The notes under the pieces were generated by a model. The model made no database searches, was not told the origin of the DNA, and worked only from the letters and a program-made list of their open reading frames with translations. Below are positions 3,149 to 56,978 of a DNA stretch of 64,000 nucleotides, in pieces. This DNA is from Phorcus lineatus (taxonomy: Eukaryota; Mollusca; Gastropoda; Trochida; Trochidae). The DNA lies in NCBI GenBank assembly GCA_921293015.1, contig OV121087.1, positions 12,350,501-12,414,500 on the forward strand, written 5' to 3'. Each line of letters opens with the position of its first letter. Positions within the stretch are counted from its first letter, which is position 1. The position numbers and the translations under genes were made by a program.

Positions 3149-3841
3149 TTATCTTTCAGGGATCAATTTAGTATGTCTTCTTCGACGACAATAGTCATGC
3201 ATTAGCATCATATCATTATGACGATACTTTCAAGAGAAAATAATATAGGGAAAAGGAAAATAGTTATTCCCCTGAAAACAGTTGACTTCAGCTCAAGTAT
3301 TCATATCATCTATGACAGTTGCCAATGCAAAGGTTGTGCAACTTCGAGAAAAAATGACAAAGGGAAAATGAATTCCTTTTTTATGTTAAATTAAAAAATA
3401 TGAAAACATTTTGAGGAAAGTTGCAAGTCACTCCAGATATAAACGTTTCCTGATTTCAGGTTGATATTTCATTATGATAAGAAAATAAGGAGATAGCAGA
3501 TAGGATATTACCTTATTGGTAAAATACTTTTAACAATGATTAACTCACAAAGAAACCAAAGCTTTATTTAGATATTGCCAATTTTGCTAAAAATGAAATG
3601 TAAGCTAGGACATATTCCATTCAGACGTAAGTTCTATATTAAGAAAGCGTGATTATTGTTTATTGTTAGAGAGACATGGATATCAACAGGGAACACGATG
3701 ACTAAGAAATAAATTAAGATGGCTTGAGCAGTATTTAAAGGCACACTCCGTGTTTTTCATGACAATTTATTCTAGATAATTGTTAAAATACTATATATGA
3801 CGATAACTTCAAAACATTTCATATATCTATTCCAAAGTGAC
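3149..3841. other. Intergenic, MITE-like scrap only
   Basis: TTAAAGGCACACTCCGTGTT at about 3737 resembles one end of the TTAAAGGG families (compare 20928). Otherwise nothing recognised. Confidence 0.4.
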
Positions 3842-4140
3842 AAAATATTATACAATTATAGACTGGTGATGAGGTCAATACCTTTTATTATAGACCCGAG
3901 GAAAGCAATGTTGACCTCGGACTTCGTCCTCTGTCAATATTGCTTTCCTCGGGTCTATAAAATCAGGTATTTACCATTCACCAGTCCATAATTGTTTTAT
4001 TATGTTTCGATATATATACGAAAAGAAAAGAAAAAACTACAGTCATGAACAGCATTTTCGATCAATTGTTCAACATGACGGTCAAATGACGTCACAATAA
4101 CAATGGCATGACGTCATGTGACATCGGTTTGACGTCATTA
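3842..4140. mobile_element. Snap-back element with three TGACGTCA sites
   Basis: Arms of about 70 nt (3842-3920 with 3932-4008): TTATAGACCCGAGGAAAGCA against TGCTTTCCTCGGGTCTATAA, and GACTGGTGA against TCACCAGTC. Three TGACGTCA sites (4087, 4109, 4130) follow within 130 bp. It is the same arrangement as at 8.1 and 61.5 kb. Confidence 0.6.
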
Positions 4141-8050: not shown

Positions 8051-8123
8051 CAAGCATGTCTCCGACAGTTAAAATATCGCTTATAAAGGAAATATCAGTA
8101 GTCCTGCTTCATAACTGTGCATA

Positions 8124-8530
8124 TATAGAGGATATTTGACATTTCTCGTCGAATACCATGGATATCTCATCCAGTGAAGTAGAAATCTATATTTTCACGA
8201 GTGGCGTAGCCACGAGTGTAAATATATGATTTTCTACTTAACGAGATGAGATATTCATGGTATTCGACGAGAAATGTCAAATGTTCTTTTTATTATGTTT
8301 CCCAAAACCCCGTAAATGACCCTAACTATATGAATGGAGAAGCTAAAACGCTTCGCTAGCGCGGCCGTCGCATGACGTAATTCAATTGTTTCATGACGTC
8401 ACAGACGACGTCATATGATTGTTGCATCATTTCACTGAGTAGAATACCATAATTATTTCACTCAGTGAAAATACGGGTTTTATTTTCACCGATAAATGGC
8501 ATATTTCACCATTCGAAATATAATAAAAAG
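8124..8530. mobile_element. Snap-back element with TGACGTCA site
   Basis: Arms 8131-8185 and 8230-8284 pair: TTTGACATTTCTCGTCGAAT against ATTCGACGAGAAATGTCAAA, plus ATACCATG and GAGAT segments. The centre is CACGAGTGGCGTAGCCACGA. TGACGTCA is at 8394 with a second GACGTCA beside it. Confidence 0.6.
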
Positions 8531-19204: not shown

Positions 19205-19435
19205 AGTTCTACACATTCTACAGTTCTTCAGGTTTGGGTGCAATGCTACACTGAATTTCAGCGCAGTACCACCCATGGTTCGCTAGTTGCAACCAATGTT
19301 CGCAGGTTTCACCGCAATTCATAGCTGCAATGGTATTGCGAGCTTTCTCCCTGTAATAATACTAGCAGCCGCGATATAAGTGAAATAATCTTGAAAGCGG
19401 TGTTTAACACCAACTCAATTCACCTCACGTTTCTA
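19205..19435 (+). mobile_element. tRNA-derived SINE, head-truncated
   Basis: Plus strand copy of the same body: GGTTTGGGTGCAATGCTACA through GGTGTTTAACACCAACTC and CACCTCAC. The tRNA-like head is missing. It is the only copy in the window on this strand. Confidence 0.8.
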
Positions 19436-31293: not shown

Positions 31294-31919
31294 AAGTTTT
31301 TAGCAACAGGCAAGTGACAAGCATGTTCAAAATTTCAAATATCATCGAAAGCATCGTGAGGAAAAGAAACCAGTCGAGATCAGCATTTAAACTGACTTTA
31401 TAGATTCACTGGAACGTAGATCGTAGAAAATGACAGGCTAGAAGACAGTTGGATTCGAAGAACCCATCATTATAAAGTAACATTCATATGTCTTCCTGGA
31501 CAGTCATTTTCGACAATACACGACCGTCATAAATTATCTTCTTATAGGACCCCATATCGTAAATTTTGCAATTCCATTTTCTATATTGGTACATCGTATC
31601 TGCAAAAAACGCATACGTACAATTTGCGTAAGTGTAGAATATAGAAAACCTTTATACCCCTCCACTGTTCAGAGAGCTTGTGAAATTAACATATTTTACG
31701 TGCGCTTCAAAAGATAGGTGCCGCTCCAACTGATAGACTACTACTAGAGAAAATTGCGTTAGTAAATCTAAGATTTCATATAAAATTTGAGCCTGAAATT
31801 TATTCTTTTTCAGAGACCAAGTCTTATCGCCATCCTTAGGCTTATATCTTATTTCAGCGTCTGGCCAACAGCCTACCCTACTACGAACATAGATATGAAC
31901 GTACATCACACAATGGTTT

Positions 31920-32012
31920 CCGCATCTTCCTACTCAAAGCTTAACTATTGCCAGTCTCGAACTTGGACAGTTCGAGACTGGCAATAGTTAAGCTTTGCGT
32001 AGGAAGATGTGG
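31920..32012. repeat. Near-perfect 44-bp snap-back hairpin
   Basis: The left arm 31920-31963 and right arm 31969-32012 are complementary over 44 positions with two mismatches and a 5-nt loop (TGGAC). Core: TTGCCAGTCTCGAACT against AGTTCGAGACTGGCAA. No flanking target duplication or TIR family was recognised. Confidence 0.85.
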
Positions 32013-32640
32013 TGTCCGTTGCAATAAAATAAGGCTACACCTGTGAATCAGTAATAAGTGACATGTCACGTACTCAAATACTTGTAGACACAATCAACCC
32101 CTGAGATAATTTATTTTTTCGAGATATCGACTTGACTAGAAAAAAAAAACAGATATAAAACGCTTCTCATCTGAAATGAAAATTTGGAAACAAATCTAAG
32201 ATTTGTGAAAAAACAAAATCAAATGACAAGATACTTGCATATACTTTTATGTACGTTTAGATTCTATGATATATGTTTCTCATATTACCGTTAATAACCA
32301 GTGCAGTAACACCTTCCTAAAATGTCAACTTTCAAAAATTAACTTCGCCTCACATTATCAACAATAAGGGGCAGTATTGTTGGGGGTATTTAATGGAAAC
32401 GAAATTCGAGGGGACATTCGTGTATTTACACATATGGCATTGATTATAAATGGTTATTTCACAATTCTCTTGAAGCACGTAACTGAAAGTAAGAGTTTTT
32501 GTTGCTTAATATTCTATGAAGGCTAATAGTTTGTATTCACTCAAAAAAAAAGCATTGAGAAATGAGGCAATTTATCGGCGCTACGCATGTGGAAAGCCTT
32601 GCTAGGACATGTGAAAACAATGCTGAGTATTTATATATAT

Positions 32641-32830: not shown

Positions 32831-33322
32831 GGTAATCTTGCAAAGTTATGCAAATGAATATAAGTGTAGCTGGGTTCGTTCGTTTCATACCAAAAACTAA
32901 AGTCACGGACCGAAAACCAACAGTATTCGCCCACTTTCTAACTCCCTTATCCAACATTGTAAGAAAATGACCTGAATGACCGACGTGAAGTATTTCGTGA
33001 AAGAAAGTCCACATCTAAGAAAGGATTCGCCACGCGTGAGCTATTTGCTCAATCAACTACTGATGACGTCAGAGGGGTCAAGGTGTAAACCGCCTACATC
33101 CTTGTACTTAAACGAAACGACGCCAGTTGTATAATTACCTTAAACTAAGTTTGTACTGGTTCAAATAGGGAAACGTAGGCAGAATGTCTTTCCTGTATTT
33201 ATAACGTTTTTGTATACGCAAAACTTTCTTTTCCCCCAAACATAATTTAGACGATATGGCCTCATGCCCTTTTCTTAATTTCCGTTACCTTGTATTAAAA
33301 GTCTTGAATATATCAAATATGT

Positions 33323-33362
33323 ATGGCCTGAAGAGGCTCGTTGAGCTGAAAGCGCTAGCCAT
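33323..33362 (+). ncRNA. Candidate hammerhead ribozyme (type I, minimal), Penelope-like
   Basis: The strand folds as stem I ATGGC (33323-33327) with GCCAT (33358-33362), five perfect pairs. The core CTGAAGA (33328-33334) matches CUGANGA. Stem II is GGCTC/GAGCT (33335-33339 with 33343-33347, one G.U closing pair) with loop GTT. Then come GAAA (33348-33351), a one-pair stem III A-GCGC-T, and A at position 17 before the predicted cut after 33357. Minimal type I hammerheads with tiny stem III are known in Penelope-like elements. The G.U at the base of stem II is atypical and may weaken activity. A chance match or a dead copy is possible. Confidence 0.45.
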
Positions 33363-33452
33363 TAAAATGGATTGTTTTTACTTCTGACTTCGTATTTTTC
33401 AATATATAACGCCTGGGAGCTGAAGATCAATTTCAAATTGGTGAACTTTTTT

Positions 33453-33478
33453 CATATATATATATATATATATATATA
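33453..33478 (+). repeat. (AT)n microsatellite
   Basis: About 13 AT units, about 90 bp downstream of the hammerhead-like motif. Confidence 0.9.
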
Positions 33479-41601: not shown

Positions 41602-44600
41602 CTAACTCTCATCATATCCAAGAGCCCACTCAAAGAATCCACACTGTTTCTGTTTGCCCAAGGGACAAGCAAAGAATTTCCTTCCATTATTTGGTCCTTC
41701 TTTCATGACAGTTCTGAAGGCACAGGGCTTGCCATGTCCCTCACAGATCGGGAACCGTTTGTCACACCACTGCAACAGGAACATATTTTCAATAGTCTCA
41801 TTAAAATTGACTTATCAAAATAACAAAATTACAAAAATTACAAAATTACAAACATTACAAAAATAACCAAAATTACAAAAATAACTTAACCATTAGTAAC
41901 TTACATAATCACGTTTTAAGAAGGATCAAGCTTATCGATGAGTTCACTTTCATGAACTCTCTAACTTGACCCTAACTACAAACACCAAATGCTTTTTCTG
42001 GAGATATGATTGGCTACCTGACCATCTGTCGGAACATGAGAATGGTGGGTTTGGGTTTAGATGAACCTTCCCGAATAACCAAGGTTGTATCCCGGTGGAG
42101 TCAATATTTTCACACTTGTTTCCTTTAAACCAGTCGATTTTAATCAAAGTGATATTTTCAAATGAGTGCAGTCAATCCTTTGTAATCCAGGGTAAACATT
42201 CAAACACCCTGGATCAAAGGTGAGCTTTATGCAAAACTTTTATTACCTCCCTTTTGCTGGCCCCACCAGAATAGATTTGACATTAACCATACACACTCAG
42301 CGATGCACTTTGTTCCCATTGGGTATTCTGCTTTAAGCATCTCTATAGCATAGCTCTGCACAAAATGATCATGCCTCTGAAATCTTTTTCAATTTTAGGA
42401 AGAAATTAATAAAGGGCAAAAAGCAAGTGCTACGTCTGGAAACCCAGACACCAAAGATAATTAAGAAATGTGTTTCAGTAGTTTTCCCTGACAGGAGTCC
42501 GCTCTTAAGTTGATGCTAAACTATATCATACGCATTTTTGGATTCTTTTAATGTTTTACCAGTAGATCAGAGGTGTTCCATGGTAGAAGCAATTTCATTT
42601 GTACCATAAACACTGAAGTGAAGAAAGCTGATTGGATGGAAGGCCAGAAAGGGAGGTAATAAAATTGTAAAAAGCTTACTTTGGATCCAGGGCATTAGTG
42701 GAGGATTACCGAAACATCAAACCTGGACAAACGACTTAATGACTTAAGGTCTTAGATCAGTTCTATTTATAAAGGCTATTTAGCAAAACAATAATGACAT
42801 TTGTAACCTTTCAATAACTCCTTCTCATAACCCAATTTCTATACTATGTGACAGTAATATTACAGGAAGGACAAGATTATTGCTATTTAACCAGTTTAAG
42901 TCAAAGTTAAACCTCACCTCAAAGTAGTTGCACTGTTTTGCTCTCGGCATACTACACACAAAGAACCATCTCCCTCTGTTTTCGTTTTCCTTCCAACACT
43001 GTCTCATATAACATCTTCGTTTGTGGCCAGGACAAAGAGGTATTTTACTAGGAGTTGCCTCCCCTTGTTGAGAGGGTGCGGGAGTTGTCTTTCCTTGTTG
43101 AGCACCTTTATTGATAGCAATTGGTTTCTTGAAGCCGTTGGGGCTGTTATTTTGCGGTTTAATTATGTTTGAAGTCTCAGATAGTCTAGCTTTCTTGTGT
43201 GGTAAAGTGTCTTGGCAGTCAGACATGTTTATTTGACTGTTATTATTTGAAAGTGACCGTTTTCTGAATGTGTATCCTGACTTAGTTACCACAGTTTTCA
43301 CATTAACTTCTTGCTGAGTTTCTGTCACTTGCGAAGGAATGGTGTCAGTTGTATTTTTTTCACTCTTTTGCTGATTTGCTTGGTTAGAATTACCTCCCTT
43401 AGGAGTCAAACATGCTGAACAGTTTGTCTGATTCCCAGAGTTCTTCAATGTGCACACTGAGCATGCCCAGTCCTCAGTTTTCTTCATACTTCCTGTACTG
43501 ACCCAACTCAACAAGCTGGTCTTATTGGAGGATTTCCTGGGTAAACAGAGAAAGGAAAATGGAACATTCCCATTGATACTAGTTTACTACAAAATGTTCA
43601 AAAATATTTAGAGCTATAAAGGGAATTAAATTTTTATAGAATACTTCAGGAACTTGAAGCATCTTGAATATCAACAAAAAACATTTACAAATGAAATTGA
43701 AAAGACAATGCCAATAGTGTCTGGAAGACAAGGATATCCTATTGATGTACAACTTCTTTATTTTAACAATGATGACGTTTCAGAATAGATCCTTATACCA
43801 TTATCAAGCAAAAAGGTACAGTTATTGATACATGAAATACATATGGGTAAGTTAATGAGCCGCTTGAGCAATATTTCAGCCATTAGCGGCGAGTAAGGTG
43901 TGGAAATAAAACCATTATTTCTACATGGAATATACTTACTGTGTCTGGAAGCGAGTGAGATCATTGTTTTGACAGCTATCACAGAAGTACGTGACCCTGG
44001 CGTTGTCCTCCCCCATCCTCGTAGTGGTGATCTTCCCCTCACACTGACGGCACTTCCCCACGTGGTACACTTTCTCATAGGGCCGCAAGGGTTTCCCAGT
44101 CTTCCGACACTGCAAAGGAGTTTTTAATCTTTTGACAATGCATGGATGGAAGGAGGTAATCGGGACTTTTGTAAGGCTTCAATTAACTAGCTAACTTTTG
44201 TCGAGGTAAGGTGACTTGGGGAAAACAGCTTTCAAGAGTATTTAATTTATATCACAGCTGCTAGTAATATTGCAGGGAGACAGCCCGCAACACAAATGTG
44301 GCTATGTATTGCGGTGAAACCTGCGAAAATTGACTCGAACTAGAGAACGATGGGTGTTAGTGCGCTGTTGTTCAGTGCAACATTGCACCCAAACCTTACT
44401 GCGTGTAGAACAGTTCTCTACTGCAGACAAAGTTGTCCAGCCCCTAGCGGGATTCGAACCCAAGCAAACTTCAGCTTGCATTACAGCAACTTTTTTGATC
44501 AAGGTTTTACTTAATTAAATTAGTGCACTTAAACAATTACCGTATTTGACGTGATAAGCGCCTGGGGCGCTTAAAAAATTGGTAAAAGGGGGCGCTAATT

Positions 44601-47600
44601 AAAACGATAAAAATTGTCCTCAAGTTTAGTCTTGAAAGTGTTTTCTTACGATACACATGTCTTTGAAATATGGTTTTATAAGTTTTATCATTTTGATGGT
44701 GGCTGGGGGTCTTGAAATACCCTGTATTCTTCACTTTAGTGGAAGTAAAAGACTTATTGCAAGACTGAAAAACCTTCCTCAATGAATCAGCATGCAAGGT
44801 AAGCAATGTTGATAGGTGGGCGCTAAATCAGGATGCATATTGTTCACTCAAAAACGTGGTGGGTGGGCGCTTATAGGGGAGTGGGCGGTTATTAAGTCGA
44901 ATACGGTAAGTCCATTTAGAAATCTCCTTCTGATTGCTACAAATTGCTAGAAACAAAGTGATAGCTACTGGAAGCAGTAATCTCTCATGAGCTGTTTGGT
45001 GAAATGATAATGACAATCCTGCTACATCAGTATACTGTATTTGATGTATCTTAAAATAATTGAAAAGAAAGGGTACTTTTTGAAATTAATTTCCCTTAAG
45101 TTCTAAAGATAATCAAAACAAATACTGCCACTTTGATATGTTCAAAATTGTTTCAAGTTAAAAAACTTTGCCTGCCAATATTTTGAATAAAAAGATCGCT
45201 TACTTACCTACATGCTATACATGTAGTTCTTTAACCATAAGTATAAGGAGCAAGACTCATGTTTTGAATGCAACTGCCTAGCTTTATCACATAGGCAAAG
45301 TTGTGAGAAGGAGGTGCTTATCATTTCATGAATTACAATTTGGGTGAGAGGCTGTTTATAGTGCAAGGGTGCTTTGAATGTCAAATAAAGTAGTTGTATT
45401 TTAAGAACTGATGGTTGGTTATTCATGAATATGTGAAGCATGGTCCTTGAAACAAATGTCTTGACCTCAATTGACTTATCATCTAAGTAGTGCCCAGTTA
45501 TTCAAGGCACTTGTCCTGGTATATATATATCAGGTTATTGTAGATCTCTGTAAATACTAATGAATAAGATAGTCTGATACGACATGATTGACACAGAATG
45601 AATACAAGAATCCTGTTTACCTTATAGAAGATCATGGTAAAATCCCGTGTCATCTTTACAAGGAGGGAGATATGTTCTTCAGTCAGTTGATCTATCTGAA
45701 AATTTGTCAACAATTCATTGTTTGTTAATGTTCCAAAACATTTGGGATCACATATATATACTACATGGTTAGTCAGTTTGCTGTTGGTTACGTCAGCAAT
45801 GGTGGTATTGCCTGTCTCCAAGGGTGTGGGTTCAAATCCTGTTAGGAGCTCCACCCAAAAAAGTACAAGAATTTGCCCTATTGCAATTAGGGTGATCCTG
45901 AACTTTTGTATCATTTGTTCACTATCTAAATGGCATGTATCTTTATAATACCTTTATTATTATACCTCTATTAAATTTGTAAGAATATCATTGGTCAGTT
46001 GACATCACGTGATTGAAAAATATATCCGTACACTGACCCGGCTATCCCGAGGAGGTTTGACCTGACCAAGGCCATAGGTCGAGGTCAGGTCAGACCTCCG
46101 AGGGTGTCAGGTTCGAGAGTGTATATTATTTACTACATTGTGTTTGTATTGTACACTACGTTGCCTTGGGAACAATTTCAAATATTGATAGATTATCATC
46201 TACCATTTACATTTTCAAAACTGCAAATAAAAAAACCTATCTAATGTCTTTTTAAGCTGAGCATCTTTTTATATGATTTTGATGTTAGTAAGATCTAATC
46301 TGAGTAAAAGGAACAAAATATTTTTCTTGAAAAAAAGTGGTGTACACAAACAAACTTACCTTTGTGTTTGGCCTGATGCCACTGTCATACAAAGCCTGTA
46401 ACCGGTAATGAGAAAATTCATTCAGTCTGTGACAAAAAGTAAAATGTAATAGAAGTGGTTTTTGAAAGATGAATTTAGTAAAGTATTACTATTACCTAAC
46501 CATTAACCATTGTATTCAATGCTCATGGAAATAGAATAAAATGTTAAAAAGTTGAAACAAAATTTCTGCAGCCCATTTGGATGTAAATTTGTTAAAAGAC
46601 CTATCAAACACTATCGACTAATATTTGTCTTTGCATCTACAGTAAATACATTTCAAAATTATCTTTCAGTCATTGGTGTGCATGGTAAATTTTTTTTATC
46701 ACAATTCACAACTTATCGCAATTTATTGTCATTATACAACCTGTCAAGCTTGAACATAGTAATATTCAGAAACAACTACTTCTTCTCCATGAAATAAAAC
46801 CACTTATAGAATTTCACATATTTGACTCCAACAACATACTCTGTGCCCCTTTAAGACAACTTGTACCTCATTTTTGATGATGTTGCCCACTCCTGGTAGA
46901 ATGACCTGATCCAAGAGGACATCACACACCATTCGACCGGTCTGTTGCATCACCAAGGCAACCGCCCTCTTGGAGTTGAAAATAGGGGAACAAATATCCA
47001 AGTCCTTCAATTCTTGATACTTTTCTTTACATTCCTTGGAATCCCTGAAAGGGAATGTTGTTCAAAAGAATACATCTAAAAAAAATAAAAGACTTTGAAT
47101 TAAAAGCGGCCAAACTTTCAGTTATATGACCCAGTACAATAAATACTGAAAAACTGATGAGGTCCAGAGCAAATGCAATATCTTTTAATGAATGAATGCA
47201 TTCAGAAAGCACACAAAAATGTTAGCAGGATAAATCTACCAAACTTTGTGAAGAAATTTGTAGAGGCAAATTTTTTATCTGATATTACTTTGAATACATG
47301 CTAATCTAATCATGACATCCCTAATACTTAGGTGAGATGGGACAACCAAATAACTTATAAAAAAATGTATTAATTTTTACAAAATAGCAAGGGTATAATC
47401 AAACATTACTGGGTCAATCACATTATAAGGAAAGGCTATAACAGCATCTGCAGACTAAGGGTTAATGACACCTGATGTCCGCAGCTTACTTATAGAAGGC
47501 AAGATGGTCGCCATCCATGTCTACTTCCAATGATGAAGGCTATAACAGGGTGTGCAGACTAAGGGTTAATGAAACATCTCACCTGATGTCTGCTGCAGAC

Positions 47601-55815: not shown

Positions 55816-56690
55816 AACGATGCAAGTATAACAGCAATTCAAGTAAGAAATCATTAGCTGTGCCTCAAACTTTGTTCACATCCTTTCAAACTTGCAAATA
55901 TTATGTAATTTGTGTTCTTGTTAAGAAAAAGTAGCATGGCAGAAAAAACTAACCATTTTTTAGTCTTAGCATCAGTAGTGACGGCTTAATGTACATAACG
56001 TGCGACTAAGCGTAAAATATTCGAAAACTACAATTTGTAATTTTCTCTATCCTTCATTTCACAAGGAAAATTCTATTAAATAATCATGGGAATCGGAGTG
56101 TTGAAAATTGACCCAATTCTGGCTATTTCCTCCTTCCAAAGTTAAAAAAACATGTCCTTCTTTTTGAAGGCACACGGTTAGTTTTAAAATAATTTCCTAC
56201 ACGTAGACAACTGATGATCTATTATTGTTGCAGCTTAAGTAATGTAATCAAAATCAAAACAAAATCCCAATAACATGATATTTGCATTGCAACACACAGG
56301 AATTTAGGAACGCAGCAATTAGTAACTGAAGTAAATGAATGATAATCTTTTAAGTCATTTGTCTGATTCATACCTTTAATGGTCAAATCATTAAATTAAA
56401 AATATTTAATTCACATTTGATTTGTAAAGGAAAATATGACTTAAACATATTTAAAAGAACAATGAATAAATAATTGTTATATATGTCAGGTTTCCGGTAA
56501 CAAAAGTTAAAACATATGTGGCTTATGGGGTCAAACAAGCTGAAGTTGAATGGCAGAAATTATAAGAGTCAGATTTTCTACTATTAACTTTTGCTTTAGC
56601 GATTCTCAGTGACCCATATAGTTGGAATTGTCTATGTAAGATATGACGATTAAAGATGTGATGATAAAATAAAAACAAATCACAGTATAA

Positions 56691-56978
56691 GTGAAAAAAG
56701 TATTTCATAAGTGAAAACAGTATTTCATAAGTGAAAATAGTATTTCATAAGTGAAAACAGTATTTAATAAGTGAAAACAATATTTCATAAGTGAAAACAG
56801 TATTTCATAAGTGAAAACAGTATTTCATAAGTGAAAATAGTATTTCATAAGTGAAAACAGTATTTAATAAGTGAAAACAATATTTCATAAGTGAAAACAG
56901 TATTTCATAAGTGAAAACAGTATTTTATAAGTGAAAACAGTATTTCTTACGTGAAAACAGTATTTCATAAGTGAAAAC
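56691..56978 (+). repeat. 20-bp tandem array with 100-bp higher-order period
   Basis: Fourteen complete units of GTGAAAACAGTATTTCATAA plus a partial one, with no indels. Variant order repeats every five units: 56731-56830 and 56831-56930 are identical except one base (C to T in the last unit). AAAA and TTT tracts alternate about every 10 bp. Confidence 0.95.

Follow-up and report, generated by a model that had tools for sequence, protein, structure and literature searches.

Penelope-like elements (PLEs) reportedly carry minimal type I hammerhead ribozymes that are said to act as dimers, as recounted by Cervera and de la Pena in 2014 and by Lunse, Weinberg and Breaker in 2017. The minimal type I PLE hammerhead is a known kind of ribozyme, and the family described here (family 1) shares with the published examples the type I arrangement, the minimal stem III, the placement in the pLTR, a loop III capable of dimer formation and a position near a PLE reading frame. 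Family 1 also has a G·U pair at 10.1-11.1, an A at N7, a predicted cut after UA and a three-base loop II, features that the published examples may share.

The Pen1–Pen6 elements of Adineta vaga have both direct and head-to-head inverted pLTRs, with a tail that may be present at one of the inverted ends, according to the part of the published account on which we draw (PMC3846280). Family 1 resembles them in its ORF, which includes an RT and a C-terminal GIY-YIG, in its pLTR arrangements and tail, in the palindromes at its inverted junctions and in the microhomology at its 5′ junction. The tail comprises ∼46 nt in family 1 versus 31 bp in Pen2a of A. vaga, as given in the same excerpt (PMC3846280).

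Further likenesses are found with the Poseidon element PAc of Anolis carolinensis, insofar as the relevant sections of PMC11167929 describe it. Both have a hammerhead at the locus, tandem units and an AT-rich target; in PAc, reverse transcription starts inside the RNA and inserts carry the tail, which appears to hold for family 1 as well. However, the PAc ORF starts at hammerhead stem II, whereas the first frame of family 1 (copy L136) begins ∼115 nt past the predicted cut. Animal non-LTR retrozymes likewise contain type I hammerheads, and one axolotl class combines a one-pair stem III with a palindromic tetraloop, as family 1 does (PMC7229834, in part). Unlike these retrozymes as that source portrays them, the sequence examined here has neither a short tandem repeat nor strong self-pairing, and it belongs to a PLE.

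The window is a stretch of 64,000 nucleotides from Phorcus lineatus. We consider it very probable that the type I hammerhead at 33323–33362 belongs to a young PLE of the canonical kind, and that the window holds the 5′-truncated end of one such element, which inserted into AT-rich DNA.

Architecture of the hammerhead motif

The motif (Table 1) has a stem I of five Watson-Crick pairs and a stem II of four Watson-Crick pairs plus G10.1·U11.1, with GUU as its loop. The CUGANGA/GAAA core is exact, with A at N7, and stem III consists of a single A15.1-U16.1 pair that closes a palindromic GCGC tetraloop. The pairs adjacent to the core are thus C-G at 1.1-2.1, G·U (wobble only) at 10.1-11.1 and A-U at 15.1-16.1. 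All type I core positions listed in the consulted portion of PMC3088659 (C3, U4, G5, A6, N7, G8, A9, G12, A13, A14, A15.1, U16.1 and H17) are satisfied. Since H17 is A, cleavage is predicted to follow UA, in agreement with the initial annotation, which had placed the cut after position 33357. When the letters were read again, the complete core, stems and positions that it had described proved right to the base. Judged by sequence, 33323–33362 holds a type I hammerhead core that is minimal yet complete, real and not a product of chance.

Table 1. Features of the hammerhead motif and of the surrounding element fragment (window coordinates)
Feature	Position	Strand	Basis
Whole motif: ATGGC CTGAAGA GGCTC GTT GAGCT GAAA GCGC TA GCCAT	33323..33362	+	read from sequence
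Stem I 5′ strand, AUGGC	33323..33327	+	sequence
Core CUGAAGA (C3-A9)	33328..33334	+	sequence
Stem II and loop, GGCUC GUU GAGCU; first pair G·U	33335..33347	+	sequence
Core GAAA (G12-A15.1)	33348..33351	+	sequence
Stem III tetraloop GCGC, palindromic; AGCGCU able to pair with a second copy	33352..33355	+	sequence, dimer energies
U16.1 and A17; predicted cleavage after 33357	33356..33357	+	sequence and hammerhead rule
Stem I 3′ strand, GCCAU	33358..33362	+	sequence
5′-truncated terminal fragment (pLTR end and tail), PLE family 1	~33317..33452	+	sequence identity; start good to ~2 nt
Remainder of terminal repeat, common to both kinds of element end	33363..33407	+	printed copies
Tail	33408..33453	+	one of two inverted ends in many copies seen
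(AT)n run adjoining element end	33454..33478	+	AT runs likewise adjoin many other ends seen

The window copy as an element fragment

A DNA query covering window positions 33200–33450 gave at least 50 matches, the window itself included, when 40 of 907 first-look candidates were scored. At least 37 other places are 100% identical to 33317/33318–33450, which corresponds to 133–134 nt (query bases 118/119–251). Because these places are identical from query base 118/119 onward, the window copy is taken to start at ∼33317, roughly 6 nt ahead of stem I, and the bases farther upstream depart from the element. Comparison with copy L132 shows that identity continues to 33452.

The window copy is the tail version of the element end. 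It contains no coding parts, as its homology is confined to 33317–33452, and neither RT nor GIY-YIG was found in the eight ORFs tested between 27.9 and 39.3 kb of the window, in line with an earlier remark that no RT frame is nearby. The fragment sits between genes in AT-rich DNA, and inspection by eye revealed no clear target-site duplication. Insertion may have occurred by target-primed reverse transcription that began at the tail, and an early stop of this reaction would leave a short fragment like the one in the window. The suggestion that the motif might belong to a PLE terminal fragment is borne out by the 37 identical places and by fuller copies, in which a PLE protein is encoded between hammerhead-bearing repeats.

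A full-length Penelope-like element

Copy L132 contains an intact ORF of 805 aa with a C-terminal GIY-YIG domain (PF01541, E 5.2e-7), and its match to RVT_1 is weak and below the cut-off (E 0.012). The hammerhead of this copy is at 4067, ∼115 nt downstream of the end of the 805-aa frame, and an inverted 302-bp end repeat lies on the other side. Copy L136 carries hammerheads at 1030(−), 3923(+) and 7674(+), and its tandem unit measures 3,751 bp. In this tandem copy, the tail is continued by the 5′ portion of the following unit, upstream of the first frame. Fuller copies such as L136 answer in the affirmative whether two copies of the motif flank an element, a check that had been proposed from the window alone. 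L136 also has another frame, of up to 413 codons, which lies upstream of the main ORF and overlaps it; this second frame, together with the many ends that abut (AT)n, distinguishes family 1 from Pen1–Pen6 as described in the excerpt cited above.

The 805-aa protein has at least 58 genome matches (56 of 3615 candidates scored). Residues 1–805 are covered at 94–100% identity by 14 matches, nine of which have no internal stop, and more distant PLE families are 54–57% identical to this protein. The GIY-YIG domain alone has at least 150 genome matches (150 of 1018 candidates scored). A search of the PDB by sequence gave no match to the 805-aa protein, and NCBIfam yielded nothing relevant. The pLTRs of family 1 occur both in tandem and in head-to-head inverted orientation, and one inverted end may bear a tail. 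Given an RT (weakly matched) joined to GIY-YIG, pLTRs in both arrangements and the optional tail, the element is by these features a canonical endonuclease-containing PLE.

Several other arrangements were observed among PLE loci. At 1012–2536 of locus L131, a GIY-YIG frame of family 2 and its hammerhead (1464, minus strand) lie between two family 1 hammerheads of the same strand, and this order marks the segment as a nested or chimeric insertion. Among the GIY-YIG genome matches, several PLE neighbors stand in minus-then-plus order a few kilobases apart, and a head-to-head insertion habit may be general among PLEs of the P. lineatus genome. TTAGGG-type repeats occupy 1623–1691 of locus L165, at the junction of two head-to-head family 1 ends, as if telomere-like sequence had been captured there.

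Genome-wide copies of family 1

The assembly from which the window derives (957.8 Mb) was scanned with the pattern CTGANGA-N(6-20)-GAAAGCGCTA. This search yielded 544 matches (263 forward, 281 reverse), whereas the reversed pattern used as a control gave none in the same 957.8-Mb assembly, so the genome-wide copies that the initial annotation proposed to look for do exist and retain the core. Among the 100 copies listed from these 544 matches, 86 are identical to the window over 30 bases. The pair at 10.1-11.1, previously called the weak point of the motif, is G·U in 99 of the 100 listed copies and G-C in one. This degree of retention indicates that the wobble pair is not a sign of decay. A literature search on hammerheads and pair 10.1-11.1 found no paper.

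Neighboring copies less than 10 kb apart among the 100 listed are arranged as 18 −+, two −−, one ++ and no +−, and nine of the −+ neighbors are separated by less than 300 bp. The excess of −+ neighbors corresponds to the arrangement that the cited part of PMC3846280 describes for Penelope, with pLTRs inverted head to head.

Insert ends relative to the predicted cleavage site

Homology upstream of the core extends for 0–7 nt in seven of the 100 listed copies, 8–36 nt in 42, 37–100 nt in 10, 101–194 nt in five and 195 nt or more in 36, a full count that is biased by the 19 members of close inverted pairs, which necessarily have short upstream homology. When these 19 are removed, the corresponding values for the remaining 81 copies are 7, 23, 10, 5 and 36, and for the 61 solo copies they are 6, 23, 6, 3 and 23. 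Extents were measured against L132, and some of them come out ∼3 nt too short owing to a G/A variant 11 nt upstream; copies with 200 nt of fetched flank were scored as 195 or more.

The core pattern demands an intact core, and copies that end inside the core were therefore sought separately by their 3′ flank. The 34-base flank just past the predicted cleavage site has 443 genome matches. Of these, 75 were compared (C1, C2, and C5 to 26.7 Mb): 65 have a listed core, and the other 10 comprise four with a changed hammerhead and six that are cut off inside it. One of these six ends within ∼4 nt of the predicted cut site, and none of the 75 flank matches compared ends exactly at it. This distribution of ends speaks against cleaved RNA as the usual template for insertion, in agreement with the in vitro finding for PAc in the cited sections of PMC11167929.

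Reverse transcription may often start at the tail and stop 8–36 nt past the ribozyme, and such early stops would leave short solo pieces or head-to-head palindromic pairs. Tentatively, and with less than even confidence, we raise the idea that the hammerhead borders a hot spot of cDNA ends and generates mini-elements of a class of its own. Since the ends do not fall exactly at the cleavage site, the ribozyme would not be cutting the integrating template.

Sister families and a possible role other than cleavage

A scan of 33 PLE copies, with 560–860 nt fetched downstream of the protein, required an exact core, a stem I of at least three pairs and a stem II of at least three pairs. The 33 copies were chosen by hand from the lists of protein and GIY-YIG matches, and several come from one family. 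Downstream of the protein, 20 of the 33 copies have a hammerhead on the sense strand and none has one on the antisense strand, whereas mononucleotide shuffles gave one in 6600. Seven PLE families of this genome other than family 1, in a grouping of eight made by eye, carry hammerhead-like motifs with other stems at the matching place.

Thirteen of the 33 copies do not match the full descriptor. Seven of them (L200, L201, L204, L205, L207, L208 and L211) miss it by one core mismatch or by too short a stem II. In L206 and L210 the core is present beside a vestigial stem II, and L203 has a deletion in stem II. No hammerhead motif was found downstream of the protein in L187, L188 or L189.

Stem I is paired in all eight families although its bases vary at positions 2–5, and stem II likewise keeps its pairing with changed bases at positions 2–5 in most families. 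This covariation, for which the initial annotation had proposed looking, has its exceptions at pair 10.1-11.1, which is unpaired in five of the eight families, and in families 6 and 8. MAFFT alignments of the families put stem II out of register. The stem III loops of the eight families are GCGC, GTAC, ACGT, GCGC, TATGCATA, CCGG, CCGG and CATG, the family 8 loop having been read by eye. All eight are palindromic (4 nt long in seven families and 8 nt long in one), as are the loops in 19 of the 20 full matches, the exception being L192 of family 5. In family 7, four copies (L205, L207, L208 and L211) have ATGATGA in place of CTGATGA, a C3-to-A change, and this family may have lost activity. Family 8 has a vestigial stem II. 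With the mismatches at 10.1-11.1 in five of eight families, these changes suggest that not every family need be active.

These motifs could be genuine PLE hammerhead sequences that are conserved for some other purpose, such as recognition of the template by RT, a promoter or a 5′ UTR function, with cleavage playing no role in the element's cycle. The insert ends of family 1 lie off the predicted cleavage site, as this explanation would have it. It is also favored by results for Anolis Poseidon in the consulted sections of PMC11167929, where insertion in vitro was normal for catalytic mutants and the reads in public RNA data neither began nor ended at the cut site. However, the core and the palindromic loop III have for the most part persisted through the changes in the stems, a pattern that is not by itself demanded by RT binding or a promoter role. 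We regard this explanation as unlikely but worth serious consideration, and favor the reading of the motif as a PLE hammerhead ribozyme.

Predicted folding, the dimer model and the retrozyme alternative

In fold predictions, the monomer hammerhead with A15.1-U16.1 as the sole stem III pair has a free energy of −3.8 kcal/mol. The double hammerhead dimer of the window sequence evaluates to −27.1 kcal/mol, and the best predicted dimer fold, which is a different structure, lies not far below it at −29.3 kcal/mol. With at least 20 nt of native flank, the hammerhead is not the favored fold (stem I probability no greater than 0.06), and a competing hairpin, GGCCUGAAGAGGCU, is predicted at −6.3 kcal/mol. 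Neither the 40-nt fold (z −0.04) nor the 206-nt fold is better than those of shuffled sequences. Given the one-pair stem III, and with no second hammerhead in the window, the window copy alone is probably nearly inactive.

For two hammerheads to share a stem III, the loop must be palindromic (PMC6466107, in the part used here), and the axolotl hammerhead is similar in its palindromic loop and dimer (PMC7229834, likewise in part). The palindromic stem III loops across the families fit this published dimer model. In transcripts of tandem units, two hammerheads could pair via the palindromic AGCGCU, forming stem III in trans along with stem I. The paired hammerheads would cut each other after UA, and this mutual cutting would divide multimeric RNA into units.

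We also considered whether the motif belongs to a small non-autonomous non-LTR retrozyme, a ∼170–400-nt repeat monomer spreading via circular RNA made by the hammerhead, as the initial annotation had offered as an alternative. The hammerhead is of type I and the GC content is low, as in a retrozyme, and mussel and other invertebrates have such elements according to the excerpt of PMC7229834. However, no tandem or second copy and no monomers of ∼170–400 bp were found within the window, circular folds of 170–400 nt predicted for 20 placements are ordinary (z −0.82 to +1.57), and the flanks match PLE ends. We therefore rejected the retrozyme, which we judge very improbable, and retain the PLE assignment.

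Chance expectation and covariance models

The motif at 33323–33362 is the only descriptor match on either strand of the window, even if one core mismatch is allowed. With at least five stem I pairs and four stem II pairs required, a first-order Markov model of the window predicts 1.1e-4 chance matches per 64-kb window on both strands (278 hits among 60.4 million simulated cores), a value that falls to 3.7e-6 (nine hits among the 60.4 million) if a palindromic tetraloop is also required. Direct simulation gave three hits in 3.64 Gb. The descriptor behind these values was composed after the motif was already known. As a control, the core pattern was sought in 120 stretches of viral contigs; among the 122 matches listed, none has both stems and five have one stem only.

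At its gathering threshold, Rfam reported no match of the window motif, and even lax E-values brought up no hammerhead family. The initial annotation held that the lack of a covariance-model hit would refute the motif, and that lack is indeed what was found. However, Rfam also reported no hammerhead in any of eight PLE control loci, of which five have an exact, stem-complete motif by our own descriptor scan and three a weaker one, so the negative hardly counts against a minimal hammerhead. This suggests that Rfam misses such minimal hammerheads.

A merely accidental likeness to a hammerhead, which the blank Rfam search and the poor fold in native context might favor, is refuted by the chance expectations above, the 544 genome copies, the sense-strand motifs in PLE copies and the compensated stems of the sister families, and we give it a negligible probability.

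Other features in the window

On the minus strand at 42825–47061, opposite to the hammerhead and ∼9 kb away, zinc fingers of the GRF and RanBP types occur together with an H2TH segment; the scores for RanBP and H2TH are just or well below their cut-offs. In our reading, these are pieces of a putative NEIL3-like DNA glycosylase gene. Positions 31911–32021 form a near-perfect hairpin with 53-nt arms that are 89% complementary and 5 nt apart, possibly a foldback or MITE-like element, and similar self-complementary stretches occur at 3817–4023 and 8123–8293. A dispersed SINE- or MITE-like repeat of ∼110–285 bp, 70–90% alike between copies, is present in both orientations at 19228, 23297, 23830, 24838, 40790, 44197 and 48220. 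Positions 56687–56978 hold a tandem array of 14.6 copies of a 20-bp unit (93% matches).

Implications for Penelope-like elements

To the known kind of ribozyme, this analysis adds family 1 with its sisters, the consistency of the palindromes and an excess of inserts that end shortly upstream of the ribozyme. If the proposed hot spot of ends corresponds to the 5′ end of the RNA, then cleavage would strip a capped leader from the transcript. Removal of the leader in this way would act as a brake on the element RNA or as its unit divider. The family is young, with near-identical copies, some of which have an intact main frame, and its sisters differ in their stems and keep the palindromic loop III. 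Together, these properties make both the dimer model and the role of cleavage in transposition directly testable.
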